Source: a bacterium (GTDB taxonomy: Bacteria > JAJVIF01 > JAGGVT01). Taken from it: a stretch of DNA of 14,900 nt. The notes under the pieces were generated by a model. The model made no database searches, was not told the DNA's origin, and saw nothing but the letters and a program-made list of their open reading frames with translations. Position 1 is the first letter of the stretch. Each line of letters begins with the position of its first letter. Below, one piece after another: positions 6,930 through 14,900 of the stretch. A program made the translations under genes and the position numbers. The stretch spans positions 1 to 14,900 of the forward strand of contig JAGGVT010000038.1 of assembly GCA_021157815.1 (NCBI GenBank). Reading direction: 5' to 3'.

Positions 6930-7125
6930 AGCCTGTCGGGAAAGGCATTGCAAACAAAATGCCCCAGCCCAGCCCTCCCCGCGAGCGGGAAGGGAGAATG
7001 TTGTCTTTTCCCTTCGCAAGTGTATAGACCGGGTAAATCGTTTGCAAATACAAAAATATTTCCCCCCGCTCGCGGGGGGATTAAAGGGGGGAATGAGATG
7101 TAAAAACAACCTTTCCCGACAGACT
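6930..7125. mobile_element. Miniature element B, copy 1 (196 bp)
   Basis: Terminal inverted repeats of 16 bp with one mismatch, AGYCTGTCGGGAAAGG, begin at 6930 and end at 7125. The element is flanked by a 6-bp direct duplication, CTTTCG (6924-6929 and 7126-7131). Removing the element and one duplication restores a hairpin of the type ATTCCGGCTTTCGCAGGAAT. Internally it carries GC-rich palindromes built on CCCGCTCGCGGG and CCCCCCGCGAGCGGGGGG. It has no plausible coding capacity. A second, inverted and interrupted copy starts near 14567. Confidence 0.8.
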
Positions 7126-9879: not shown

Positions 9880-10203
9880 CTCGTAGCCCTGCTTCTCATG
9901 AGACTGTCTCAGAACCTGGCTTTTTCTGTCATCCTGAGCGAAACGAAGGATCTATTTTAGATAGTGTAGATTAATTTCATCAGGTTTAATCATCAACACA
10001 GTAGCAAATAGATTCTTCGCTGCGCTAAGAATGACAAACCTTTTTGCTTATAATTGAGTTATGAGACACTTTCCTCATTAACCGGGGTAACGACCTGACT
10101 TATATGCAATATGTCAAAATGTATGTGCGAAGGTAATTTAAAAATCCAGGCTGCAGTGCTCATGCCATCAATTTTCCCGGCTAATGAGAAGCCGGGCTAC
10201 GAG
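9880..10203. repeat. Inverted pair of hairpin repeats
   Basis: A 20-base sequence CTCGTAGCCCKGCTTCTCAT occurs at 9880-9899 (plus) and 10184-10203 (minus) with one mismatch. At 10176-10196 the second copy forms an intact hairpin (CCCGGCT, loop AATGAGA, AGCCGGG) beyond the flhB stop. The first copy is the same kind of hairpin, split by element C and resuming as TAACCGGGG at 10079. No U-run follows either one, so a terminator function is not clear. Otherwise 9880-10240 holds no gene. Confidence 0.65.
9900..10074. mobile_element. Miniature element C, copy 1 (175 bp)
   Basis: The ends share the inverted motif GTCTCANAA (GAGACTGTCTCAGAA at 9900; complement of GGAAAGTGTCTCATAA at 10074). TCAT is duplicated directly outside (9896-9899 and 10075-10078). 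Subterminal inverted arms of about 31 bp start TGTCATYCTKAGCG on each side. There is no coding capacity. The copy at 14670-14843 is one base shorter and is inverted; the two share an internal segment around CACMAACACAGTAGCA. The target site was the loop of a hairpin repeat. Confidence 0.8.
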
Positions 10204-11373: not shown

Positions 11374-11501
11374 TGTATCGCAAAAAAGGGGACAGTCCAC
11401 ACGAGGCTTCAAACTTGATGATTTCAATGAGTCTCATTAATAACCCCAGTGTTTATCGCATTAATAAACGTTGTTGTGACAGTCCCCTTTTTTGCGATAC
11501 A
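11374..11501. mobile_element. Miniature element D, copy 1 (128 bp)
   Basis: Perfect 20-bp inverted ends, TGTATCGCAAAAAAGGGGAC (11374-11393) and its complement (11482-11501), enclose about 88 bases with no coding capacity. A second, more degenerate copy in the same orientation is at 12351-12462; the two share the GGGGACAGTCCACA end and the nearby CAGGCTTCAAA-like segment. No direct target duplication is evident. The palindromic ends resemble repeats mobilised by REP-associated tyrosine transposases, but this is an inference; no transposase is in the window. Confidence 0.7.
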
Positions 11502-11540: not shown

Positions 11541-12095
11541 TTGACTGGCATATACATATTAATCGCGGTAATCGTTGTAATCGTACTCTGGTGGATTGGA
11601 GTATTCAATTCCCTTGTAGTTCTCCGCAACCGTATTGAGAACGCGTGGGGGCAAATCGACGTTCAGCTCAAACGACGGTATGACCTTATTCCCAACATTG
11701 TTGAGACCGTAAAGGGATACGCAAAGCACGAAAAAGAAACTTTCGAAAACGTGGTAAAGGCAAGGCAAATGGGCATGGATGCCTCTAATGTCCAGGACCA
11801 GGCTGCCGCTGAGAATATGCTTACCGGCGCATTGAAAAGCATTTTCGCTCTCTCCGAGGCATACCCCGAACTTAAAGCAAACGAGAATTTCAAGCTCCTG
11901 CAGGAGGAGTTGGCTGGAACCGAATCGAAAATCGCTTTTGCCCGCCAGCATTACAACGACTCGGTCATGTTGTTTAATACTCGAATCCAGATGTTTCCAG
12001 CGAGCATTGTCGCAAACGCATCAGGTTTCAAAGATCGTGATTTCTTCGAACTTGAGGAACCCGAGGCGCGCGAGGCTCCGAAGGTACAGTTTTAG
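11541..12095 (+). CDS. lemA: LemA family membrane protein
   Basis: A 184-residue LemA family protein, which has an N-terminal membrane anchor and a long helical-bundle domain; its molecular function is not settled. One transmembrane helix is visible at about residues 4-20 (IYILIAVIVVIVLWWIG), with the main part then predicted on one side of the membrane. Family motifs include FNSLVVLRNRIENAWGQIDVQLKRRYDLIPNIV (22-54), ETVKGYAKHEKETFENVVKAR (55-75) and TESKIAFARQHYNDSVMLFNTRIQMFPA (127-154). The length is normal. The start is TTG, supported by GGAGG six bases upstream and no suitable nearby ATG. No TPM-domain partner gene follows, unlike many lemA loci; the gene is transcribed alone and ends at a strong terminator. 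Confidence 0.94.
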   Translation: MTGIYILIAVIVVIVLWWIGVFNSLVVLRNRIENAWGQIDVQLKRRYDLIPNIVETVKGYAKHEKETFENVVKARQMGMDASNVQDQAAAENMLTGALKSIFALSEAYPELKANENFKLLQEELAGTESKIAFARQHYNDSVMLFNTRIQMFPASIVANASGFKDRDFFELEEPEAREAPKVQF

Positions 12096-12119: not shown

Positions 12120-12157
12120 TGATTCAAATAACACCACGCTTTAGCGTGGTTCTTTTT
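12120..12157 (+). terminator. lemA terminator, copy 1 of a mirrored 38-bp repeat
   Basis: The stem ACCACGC / GCGTGGT with loop TTTA (12132-12150) is followed by TCTTTTT, a normal intrinsic terminator 36 bases after lemA. The whole 38-bp stretch matches the reverse complement of 12614-12651 at 36 of 38 positions. Confidence 0.8.
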
Positions 12158-12193
12158 ACAATTTGTTGAAACCATACACTACATGGGGTGCCG

Positions 12194-12225
12194 CCCACAC
12201 ATCACGTCTTTTTGTGATTTGTGGG
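12194..12225. repeat. Hairpin CCCACACATCAC / GTGATTTGTGGG
   Basis: A 12-bp stem with one mismatch and an eight-base loop, followed by GGGTGAAACG. The same decamer recurs at 12524-12533, where ATGGGTGAAA (12522-12531) pairs with TTTCACCCAT (12549-12558). Both hairpins lie in the lemA / hydratase spacer and look like fragments of small repeats; no gene is present in 12158-12613. Confidence 0.5.
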
Positions 12226-12350
12226 TGAAACGCATTAGTGTCCAGTTAAGTTAGAGTCCAATAACCGTATTGCTGATTAATAGAGAATATACCGGCTTGT
12301 TGATATTTATCAGACATGAATTGAAAGTGAATATCGAATCGTTCTATCCG

Positions 12351-12462
12351 TAAAAAGGGGACAGTCCACACCAGGCTTCAAATCTGATGCAATCAATATA
12401 CCATGCTGTAAACCCTTATTTATACGGTGTTTATTCACTTTGTTGGGACAGTCCCATTTTTA
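12351..12462. mobile_element. Miniature element D, copy 2 (112 bp, degenerate)
   Basis: The ends TAAAAAGGGGACAGTCC and the complement of TAAAAATGGGACTGTCC bound a stretch resembling 11381-11494. Shared features are the GGGGACAGTCCACA opening, the AGGCTTCAAA segment, a TGTTTAT near the right end, and the GACAGTCCC closing. It lacks the outer TGTATCG extension and has mismatched ends, so it is probably an older or inactive copy. Confidence 0.65.
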
Positions 12463-12613
12463 CTACCATCGTGTAGTATTCCAAGATATTTCTGTATTCT
12501 TATAGTTTTAATCGGACAGTAATGGGTGAAACGTACAAACTCATAACATTTCACCCATAAATCCGAGTCGGCTGTATAGGCGGTACCCAGCTAATGATAA
12601 ACATTTAGGAATG

Positions 12614-12651
12614 AAAAAGCACCACGCTAAAGCGTGGTGTTATTTAAATCA
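12614..12651 (-). terminator. Hydratase terminator, copy 2 of the mirrored 38-bp repeat
   Basis: Read on the minus strand, the stem CACCACGC / GCGTGGTG with loop TTTA is followed by CTTTTT, an intrinsic terminator starting about 25 bases after the hydratase stop. It is the mirror copy of the lemA terminator, with two differences in 38 bases. Confidence 0.8.
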
Positions 12652-12664
12652 ACTTAACTCGTAA

Positions 12665-13519
12665 TTATTTATTTTTCCAGTTGGGTTTTTCTTTCTTAAT
12701 GAAAGCGTCGATGCCCTCTTTCCTGTCCTCGCTTGCCCAGGCGAAGCCGAACAGTTCGCTTTCAAGGTCGTTTGCGTATTTAAGCGGAACTTCCATCCCG
12801 GTTTTAATAGCTCGTTTGGCGTACATCAACGCTACCCTCGAACGATTCACAAACGGTTTTGCGAATGTCTTGCTAAATTCAAGGATATCATCTGAATTAG
12901 GAACGATGTGCGAAACAAGTCCCATTTCAAGGGCCTCCTTTGCGTTTATCATTTCACCGGTGAGAATCATTCTCATCGCGTTCGACTGTCCGATTGTTCT
13001 TGGCAGGCGAACACATCCGCCCCATCCCGGAATTAGTCCGATGTTAACCTCGCTTTGCGCGAAACGGGCTTTCTGCGCGGCGATTCTGAAATCGCAGCAC
13101 AGCGCGAGTTCAAGTCCGCCACCAAGGCAAAGGCCGTTAATAGCCGCGATTGTTGGAATGTTAAGTTCCTCAAGTTTTCCAAAAGCAAGTTTACCGCTGC
13201 GAGCGAAATGGCGTGCCTCATTGGCGGTGATATCCTTGATTGAATGAACATCCGCGCCAGTTGAAAATACACGGTTGTTTCCGGTAATAATCAGAACTTT
13301 CGTTTCGTGGTCATCCCAGATTTCCTGCAAAGCGGAATCGATTTCCAGGCATGTGCTGAGATTAAGCGTGTTGAGCTGGTCGCCATCACGGTCAATTTTT
13401 AAAATCGCAAACGGATAGTCTTTGATAAGTTCGATGTCGTGATACATCCTGTCCGTCCCTGTTTTATCAGAGATATCTTCCAGGATTGTTTTTCGATTGC
13501 CTGATTCCACTTGGGTCAT
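12665..13519 (-). CDS. Enoyl-CoA hydratase/isomerase (crotonase family)
   Basis: A 284-residue crotonase-fold protein expected to hydrate trans-2-enoyl-CoA in fatty-acid or amino-acid breakdown, in the cytoplasm as a hexamer. The oxyanion-hole segments are FSTGADVHS (about 85-93) and NGLCLGGGLELALCCDFRIA (128-147). Both catalytic glutamates of true hydratases are present: E137 in GGGLELA and E157 in FAQSEVNIGLIPGWGG, with the classical 20-residue spacing. This argues against a non-hydratase paralogue, but substrate chain length cannot be read. The C-terminus ASEDRKEGIDAFIKKEKPNWK is typical. Two starts are possible: 13519 (GGAG upstream) and ATG 25 at 13447 (AGGGA upstream), the latter giving 260 residues, the usual family length. 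No other beta-oxidation gene is adjacent. Confidence 0.93.
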   Translation of the reverse strand: MTQVESGNRKTILEDISDKTGTDRMYHDIELIKDYPFAILKIDRDGDQLNTLNLSTCLEIDSALQEIWDDHETKVLIITGNNRVFSTGADVHSIKDITANEARHFARSGKLAFGKLEELNIPTIAAINGLCLGGGLELALCCDFRIAAQKARFAQSEVNIGLIPGWGGCVRLPRTIGQSNAMRMILTGEMINAKEALEMGLVSHIVPNSDDILEFSKTFAKPFVNRSRVALMYAKRAIKTGMEVPLKYANDLESELFGFAWASEDRKEGIDAFIKKEKPNWKNK

Positions 13520-13843: not shown

Positions 13844-14584
13844 ATGAAGAAAAAAACAACTGATAACAAGCTTTTCTGGAGCCTTGTACTGGCGCTTGGT
13901 ATGGTTGTCATTGTGATACTCATTTTCACAACCGCCAAAATGACCCCGGCAATGCACAAGTATTCAGGGAAACCGTATTATGACATTCCAAAGGGCAAGT
14001 CGCCTGATCCTGTGATGTCTCCTGAAAGCAGGCTTAAATCCCATGCGAAAGTCGGATTCATCGACCCGATTGTTAAAAGCAGAATGCAGGAGGAACGCGA
14101 TGGCGTTCCGAGTCCGCTTGATATCATGAACACTCCAGGAATTCTCCCCGGAATTAATGACAAGGCTTTCCCCAAGGTTCACGCGCCTGAAATTCCCGGA
14201 TATGGCAAAGCGCCCAAAAGCCCGTACGATGTGCTTTATGACCCCGACTCACCGTTTGAATTCACCGGACCGCCGGGGCGTCTTGGAGAAAAAATGAAGA
14301 GGTATATGAATCCCGATGATAAACGCAAAGCTGAACTTGGGTTATCAGGGATACCATATGAACCCACGGGTGAACCTGATGATAACCAGAGCGAGGATTT
14401 AGTAATCACACGCATGAACACTGATAACATTGACATTAATAAAATCAGAAGAGCCGTGATGAAGATTTTCTTTTCGGTTATGGAATCCAGAAAGGTTACT
14501 GTTCAACAGCCTGATGAACCTGTCGAGGGCCAACTTGAAGAAGCCAGCCCGGGTGAGATTGAAAAACTCACCTCCCCCCATTAA
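13844..14584 (+). CDS. Unrecognised membrane-anchored proline-rich protein
   Basis: A 246-residue protein of a family that I do not recognise. A basic N-terminus (MKKKTTDNK) and one hydrophobic helix at about residues 11-30 (FWSLVLALGMVVIVILIFTT) suggest a single-pass anchor with the rest outside the cytoplasm. Residues about 40-160 are rich in Pro, Gly and Asp (GKSPDPVMSPESR, NTPGILPGIND, PEIPGYGKAPKSPYD, FTGPPGRLGEK) and probably lack a compact fold. A short amphipathic segment follows (DINKIRRAVMKIFFSVMESRKV, about 197-218), then an acidic tail. The last few codons and the stop overlap the start of repeat element B copy 2, so the native C-terminus may have been replaced. Codon use looks like that of neighbouring genes, so it is probably expressed. 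A role as a periplasmic linker is only a guess. Confidence 0.7.
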   Translation: MKKKTTDNKLFWSLVLALGMVVIVILIFTTAKMTPAMHKYSGKPYYDIPKGKSPDPVMSPESRLKSHAKVGFIDPIVKSRMQEERDGVPSPLDIMNTPGILPGINDKAFPKVHAPEIPGYGKAPKSPYDVLYDPDSPFEFTGPPGRLGEKMKRYMNPDDKRKAELGLSGIPYEPTGEPDDNQSEDLVITRMNTDNIDINKIRRAVMKIFFSVMESRKVTVQQPDEPVEGQLEEASPGEIEKLTSPH

Positions 14585-14900
14585 TCCCCCCGCGAGCAGG
14601 GGGAGATATTATTTTCATTTGCAAACGATATATCCGGTTTATACACTTGTAAAGGAAAAAGACAACATTGGAAATGTCTTCTAACCTTGATTTAAACAGG
14701 ATACATTGTCATTCTGAGCGCAGCGAAGAATCTATATGCTACTGTGTTGGTGATTATATATAATGAGAAACATTTATGTTATCGCGAATAGATTCTTCAC
14801 TTCGTTCAGAATGACAGAAAATATGGGCTTCTGAGACGGTTTCCATTCTCCCTCCACGCTCGCGGGGAGGGCTGGGGTGGGGGCTTCTTGTTTGCGGCGC
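14567..14900. mobile_element. Miniature element B, copy 2, interrupted (partial)
   Basis: From CTCACCTCCCCCC onward this matches the reverse complement of copy 1 (6930-7125): CCCCCGCGAGC with its arm, TTTGCAAACGAT, TATACACTTG, then GACAACATT. The match resumes at 14848 with CTCCCTCCACGCTCGCGGGGAGGGCTGGG and continues to the window end. A 174-bp insert of element C lies between. The outer terminal repeat is not clear inside the preceding gene, and the far end is cut by the window. Confidence 0.75.
14670..14843. mobile_element. Miniature element C, copy 2, nested in element B
   Basis: Inserted in element B and flanked by CATT on both sides (14666-14669, 14844-14847); the uninterrupted copy of B has a single CATT at this point. 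The ends GGAAATGTCTTCTAA and the complement of GAAACCGTCTCAGAA match the terminal motif of copy 1. The interior carries the same TGTCATTCTGAGCG arms in inverted order relative to copy 1. Confidence 0.8.

Follow-up and report, generated by a model that had tools for sequence, protein, structure and literature searches.

The window analysed here is a 14,900-nucleotide stretch of a bacterial contig (JAGGVT010000038.1), near the right end of which a lemA gene on the forward strand converges with an enoyl-CoA hydratase/isomerase-type gene on the reverse strand. A repeat search of the window found two inverted arms of 38 nt between these genes, at 12120-12157 and 12614-12651, which match at 36 of 38 positions (95% complementary) and are 456 nt apart. 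The first arm begins 25 nt after the lemA stop codon. In a terminator scan, both arms were terminator-like on the sense strands of lemA (+) and hydratase (-), with stems of 7 and 8 pairs and tails of TCTTTTT and CTTTTT, respectively. The first-pass annotation had described the terminators of lemA and of the hydratase as a 38-bp mirrored match at 36 of 38 positions, and the repeat search confirms this match together with its coordinates. No Rfam family matched anywhere in the window. The features of the interval and its flanks are as follows.

11541 to 12095, forward strand: lemA, from the ORF list; homologues in relatives of the class have 44-62% identity.
12120 to 12157, forward strand: repeat A, copy 1, with tag ATAA at 12128-12131, hairpin at 12132-12151 and tail CTTTTT at 12152-12157; terminator-like for lemA.
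12186 to 12232, forward strand: left part of repeat B (GGGTGCCGCCCACACATCACGTCTTTTTGTGATTTGTGGGTGAAACG), which ends with the first target-duplication copy and aligns to intact B when joined.
12224 to 12232, no strand: left copy of the 9-bp target-site duplication GGTGAAACG.
12233 to 12524, forward strand: 292-bp MITE (M280) inside B, with inverted ends CATTAGTGTCC..GGACAGTAATG; recognised from its relatives, end motif and 9-bp duplications.
12352 to 12461, forward strand: palindromic repeat C (AAAAAGGGGACAGTCC .. GGACAGTCCCATTTTT) within the MITE; recognised from genome matches and from the C-like ends around the RAYT gene of L053.
12525 to 12533, no strand: right copy of the 9-bp target-site duplication GGTGAAACG.
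12534 to 12589, forward strand: right part of repeat B, ending in GGCGGTACCC (the left end mirrored), from the joined alignment with intact B copies.
12614 to 12651, reverse strand: repeat A, copy 2, inverted, with tail at 12614-12619, hairpin at 12620-12639 and tag at 12640-12643; terminator-like for the hydratase.
12665 to 13519, reverse strand: enoyl-CoA hydratase/isomerase-type gene, convergent with lemA, from the ORF list; homologues occur in 27 of 40 genomes, including the organism's own.

The interval between the arms is filled by other repeats. B is a palindromic unit of about 103 bp that starts with GGGTGCCGCCCACAC and ends in its mirror, as seen in a repeated-word scan of fetched loci, and the hairpin within it matches 92 times in the genome. 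The window copy of B is interrupted by the 292-bp insert. When the two flanks of the insert are joined at one copy of GGTGAAACG, the resulting sequence aligns with ten intact B copies from one end to the other; removal of the insert thus restores B. The insert has inverted ends, a target duplication and multiple copies and carries no gene, all of which are the marks of a MITE. Its own genome contains about 20 longer relatives at 75-89% identity and 44 matches to the end motif. Flanking duplications of 9 bp in the same register were found at four other copies (L058, L064, L066 and L123); a search for them at L120, L122 and L126 was negative, perhaps because these sites have decayed or were later rearranged. 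The C repeat within the MITE has an end, AAAAGGGGACAGTCC, with 114 genomic matches. Because B is split by a MITE with its own target duplication and C lies inside that MITE, the architecture of the interval is A [ B [ MITE [ C ] ] B ] A. The first-pass annotation had seen no clear target duplication, which is true for the 38-bp arms; the 9-bp duplication flanks instead a different element nested inside them.

Several further repeats were seen in the course of this analysis. Another C-type palindrome with 24-bp mirrored ends occupies 11376-11501 of the window, directly upstream of lemA and at the expected place of its promoter. Additional long inverted repeats (9900-10071 with 14672-14843; 6962-7092 with 14573-14669 and 14844-14882) have AGATTCTTCGC..GAATGACA and CCCCGCGAGCGGGG motifs, at three places. 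The MITE end motif lies about 110 bp from many contig ends, for example at C17:112, C22:117, C53:110, C203:109 and C213:110, which suggests that a full-length insertion sequence with such ends broke the assembly.

The first-pass annotation had proposed a genome search for the 38-mer, and a lack of other copies, which would have spoken against its reading, was not what the search showed. The search covered the 3.22 Mb of the own genome (221 contigs, assembly about 91% complete) and found the core in about 55 copies. A 22-base core gave 55 matches at no more than 1 mismatch, and a 19-base core gave 51 matches at no more than 2 mismatches with none for the reversed-pattern control. The 22-base core had no match in 58 other genomes, only 3 of which belong to the same class. 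The catalogue of A was built from pattern searches and fetched loci, and the copies on C1, C120 and C166, which are identical contig ends, are to be counted once.

The alignment of 59 copies defined the consensus of A as a 5' tag, ATAA, followed by an 8-bp hairpin, CACCAYGC-TTTA-GCRTGGTG. The four positions of the tag are conserved in 52, 55, 59 and 53 of the 59 copies. The TTTA loop is invariant (59/59), partly because the selecting pattern holds the loop. Outside tag and hairpin the flanks drift. On the 3' side of the hairpin, every position of the T-run is occupied more often by T than by any other base (41-46% per position), which is a tendency and not a conserved feature. The stem, by comparison, is paired in 50-57 of 57 copies at every position and is kept by compensatory changes, with C-G, T-G or T-A at pair 3/12 and C-G or A-T at pair 5/10. 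REP sequences and IS200-type ends are likewise built with a tag at the 5' foot of a hairpin (PMC6006769; PMC3733652).

Other hairpins with different stems are found beside A; these have a GCTTTAGC (or GCTTCCAGC) centre, e.g. GGCTTTAGCC, and such centre-sharing neighbours occur both in Bacteroidota and in the own genome (L070 and L095-L099; own contigs C162, C208 and C210). Arrays of GTTAGCAGGTTAGTAAG-like 8-bp units also recur beside A, C and some Y1 genes, including several A loci such as L013 / G000:C171:10833-11105.

The two window copies are closer to each other than A copies usually are. They match at 36 of 38 positions of the arm and 13 of 14 of the flank; the averages for all 1711 pairs of copies are 26.5/38 and 5.3/14, and the window pair ranks fifth among them. 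The only pairs that exceed it come from one copy duplicated at contig ends or from a single direct segmental duplication, and the flanks of other inward-facing A pairs match at only 2-6 of 14 positions. Shared family membership alone does not explain the 36/38 match. Possible sources are local copying between nearby inverted repeats, which could have proceeded by template switching or gene conversion, and descent of both copies from one parent. Since a third copy, on C9, matches the second window copy at 34/38, the window copies and C9 may form a sub-lineage of A.

Which enzyme could have moved A was approached through the Y1-type (PF01797) transposase genes, of which the own genome has nine. 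Most of these are bounded by inverted palindromes of their own, a different family for each (L048-L056). The protein of L056 scored above the NCBIfam cut-off for REP-associated tyrosine transposases, with L053 and L048 just below it. The RAYT gene of L056 is flanked by B and that of L053 is bounded by C-like ends, so that B and the C-like ends have the association between gene and flanking repeat that is known for RAYT-linked REPs. For A this association was not seen, as none of the nine Y1 genes has a copy within about 1.5 kb. Outside the own genome, a scan of a species-genome collection returned the exact A hairpin in four records, with one copy each, all from Bacteroidota/Chlorobiota. In Carboxylicivirga sediminis, the copy follows a Y1 gene of 155 aa, which is preceded by a similar hairpin, ATAACACCGTCCTTCAGGGCGGTG, in inverted orientation; the Y1 protein is above the NCBIfam cut-off for IS200/IS605. 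A second Bacteroidota MAG has an A-like hairpin ahead of a reading frame that by eye resembles the start of the Carboxylicivirga transposase. Since in Bacteroidota this hairpin flanks the gene of an IS200-like transposase, the best reading of A is as the REP-type end of a Y1-transposase element. The own genome holds no good relative of the Bacteroidota IS200 transposase, with only a weak match to another Y1 gene. Given this result and the lack of an A-flanked Y1 gene, the mover of A is unseen in the assembly of about 91% completeness, and A is most plausibly the end of a Bacteroidota-type IS200-like element whose gene this assembly lacks.

In class-level relatives, the hydratase homologues have about 50% identity, and lemA and hydratase are not adjacent in the loci read. 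No A copy follows the lemA or hydratase homologues at these loci or occurs elsewhere in the genomes of these relatives, whose distance is too great for an empty site to be recognised. As no close relative offers an empty A site, the mobility of A is deduced from its dispersal and not observed directly. Within the own genome, a second lemA-like gene (46% identity; L018 / G000:C217:9366-10198) is followed after about 30-40 nt by an A copy, then by B and another A; the A-B-A order is that of the window and the flanks are unalike.

Can the resemblance of the arms be accounted for in simpler ways? Stem, short loop and T-run are a general form common to intrinsic terminators, and two ordinary terminators could in principle look alike by chance or convergent evolution. 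The probability of this is negligible; about 55 near-identical genomic copies of A against no match for the control already refute it. The first-pass annotation had also raised the idea that 12120-12651 is one transposon-like element of 532 bp, with inverted ends of 38 bp that would act as terminators of any genes beside it. In line with a unit, the arm match runs past the conserved repeat by 8 nt on one side and 5-6 nt on the other, and the order A(+), B, A(-) recurs at C206 (173 bp), C208 (191 bp) and C217 (239 bp). However, most A copies are single, and no other A pair has the spacing of the window pair, since inward-facing pairs elsewhere are 45-239 bp apart and that of the window 488 bp. 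The extra length is a MITE insertion with its own target duplication. Without the MITE and one duplication, the window pair shrinks from 488 to about 187 bp, which is within the range of the other inward A-B-A pairs. The window interval is 488 bp because other repeats landed between the A copies. The sequences between A and B are, moreover, unlike at each A-B-A locus, so that these arrangements are read more simply as separate insertions that cluster together. A single 532-bp element is therefore not supported and is very unlikely, and separately inserted repeats account for the interval.

One might suppose that A is a mobile or selected family of transcription terminators, which spread by ending transcripts and of which the T-run is the working part. 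Both window copies lie 25-40 nt past stop codons and have CTTTTT tails, C208, likewise between convergent genes, repeats the window arrangement including a pair of CTTTTT tails, and T is, as noted, the commonest base past the hairpin. The 57 copies placed relative to genes, with gene calls from a simple script and not a trained gene finder, were 17 in convergent, 24 in tandem and 7 in divergent regions, with 6 at contig ends and 3 inside called genes. The 17 convergent versus 7 divergent copies would suit terminators, yet the 7 divergent copies themselves would not. The strongly conserved flank of A, moreover, is the ATAA tag, on the opposite side from the T-run. In tandem regions, 17 of 24 copies are co-oriented with the upstream gene (p = 0.06, not significant). 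Among the 15 copies that closely follow a co-oriented gene, 6 had at least 5 T in 9 nt, versus 9 of the 39 others (p = 0.31, not significant). Because T-runs are not significantly commoner behind co-oriented genes, terminator activity is not the defining property of the family, and with neither bias significant the case for terminator use is confined to the window pair and a small number of further copies. A family selected for termination is accordingly improbable. The suggestion of the first-pass annotation that a terminator-bearing repeat was copied to both sites holds in that A is a dispersed palindrome with about 55 copies, and fails in that A is not specifically a terminator: tag and hairpin are conserved, the T-run varies and shows no significant enrichment at gene ends. 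It is plausible that predicted terminator activity belongs to some copies, both window copies among them, without defining the family. We also give a small chance to a combined account, in which A is an ATAA-tagged REP family from a Bacteroidota-type IS200-like element that lost its transposase, was recruited genome-wide as paired terminators insulating convergent genes, and has nearby copies kept alike by inverted-repeat conversion.

The explanation that we favor, and consider quite probable, is that both arms belong to one REP-type repeat, in opposite orientations, which spread between the genes of this genome; the repeat is most likely the end hairpin that a Y1 (HUH) transposase of the IS200/RAYT superfamily recognises. 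B, the MITE and C are nested between the two copies, and the repeat would be partly reused as terminators. The Y1 transposase that would have mobilised it in trans was not found in the assembly. Local copying between nearby inverted repeats would be the source of the close 36/38 match. Although a T-run follows only a minority of A copies, both window copies have one, and because each then carries CTTTTT, the two may have been reused as predicted intrinsic terminators of lemA and the hydratase, a hairpin followed by a T-run downstream of a gene being the form of such terminators. This use of A is probably incidental.

DNA uptake sequences form paired terminators in some genera. We considered A as such a sequence and set this aside, as about 55 copies in 3.2 Mb are much too small a number and A is a palindrome in its own right. 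The nested insert and its relatives resemble the MITEs of DDE-type insertion sequences in size (262-308 bp), inverted ends, target duplications of 9 bp, presence in many copies and lack of a gene; the insert differs from them in carrying the palindromic C repeat. The IS200/IS605-type ends of Bacteroidota (Carboxylicivirga sediminis and MAGs) share with A a TAACACC..TTTA..GGTG hairpin, which there bounds a Y1 gene. They occur in one or few copies beside or near the gene, whereas A is present here in many copies without it.

The closest known systems are REP, BIME and REPIN, which are dispersed intergenic palindromes of 20-40 nt with a conserved unpaired 5' tetranucleotide and a link to RAYTs (PMC3733652, PMC3116915, PMC1525189). 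REPs favor gene 3' ends and convergent pairs, form palindrome mosaics and serve as insertion targets (PMC3733652, PMC3116915, PMC1525189). A differs from REPINs in that its pair spacing is variable and has no fixed form, and the cognate A-flanked RAYT was not found in the assembly. Strict REPIN doublets, in which most copies are inverted and at a set spacing, were not adopted as a description, since A copies are mostly single, with clusters both direct and inverted and spacings of 45-239 bp. A is a short, imperfect, tagged palindrome, dispersed and intergenic (54 of 57 copies are outside called genes), with a hairpin kept by compensatory C-G/T-A and C-G/A-T alternation; it favors gene 3' ends and convergent pairs and forms mosaics with other palindrome families, and REP-type repeats are insertion targets. 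Published REPs are mainly between convergent and unidirectional genes (PMC3733652), with which the placement of A agrees. It differs in its tag, ATAA, where the two described super-families have GTAG or CGTC, and in having only about 55 copies. A is thus a new, lineage-specific family of the REP/BIME type. The general phenomenon, comprising REP mosaics, insertion into REPs and the preference for gene 3' ends, is already well described. What this locus adds is an ATAA-tagged REP-type family in a sparsely sampled bacterial class, with a sequence link to Bacteroidota IS200-type ends, and one 532-bp interval that shows unrelated miniature elements stacked in a single intergenic niche and supplying hairpins able to end transcripts.
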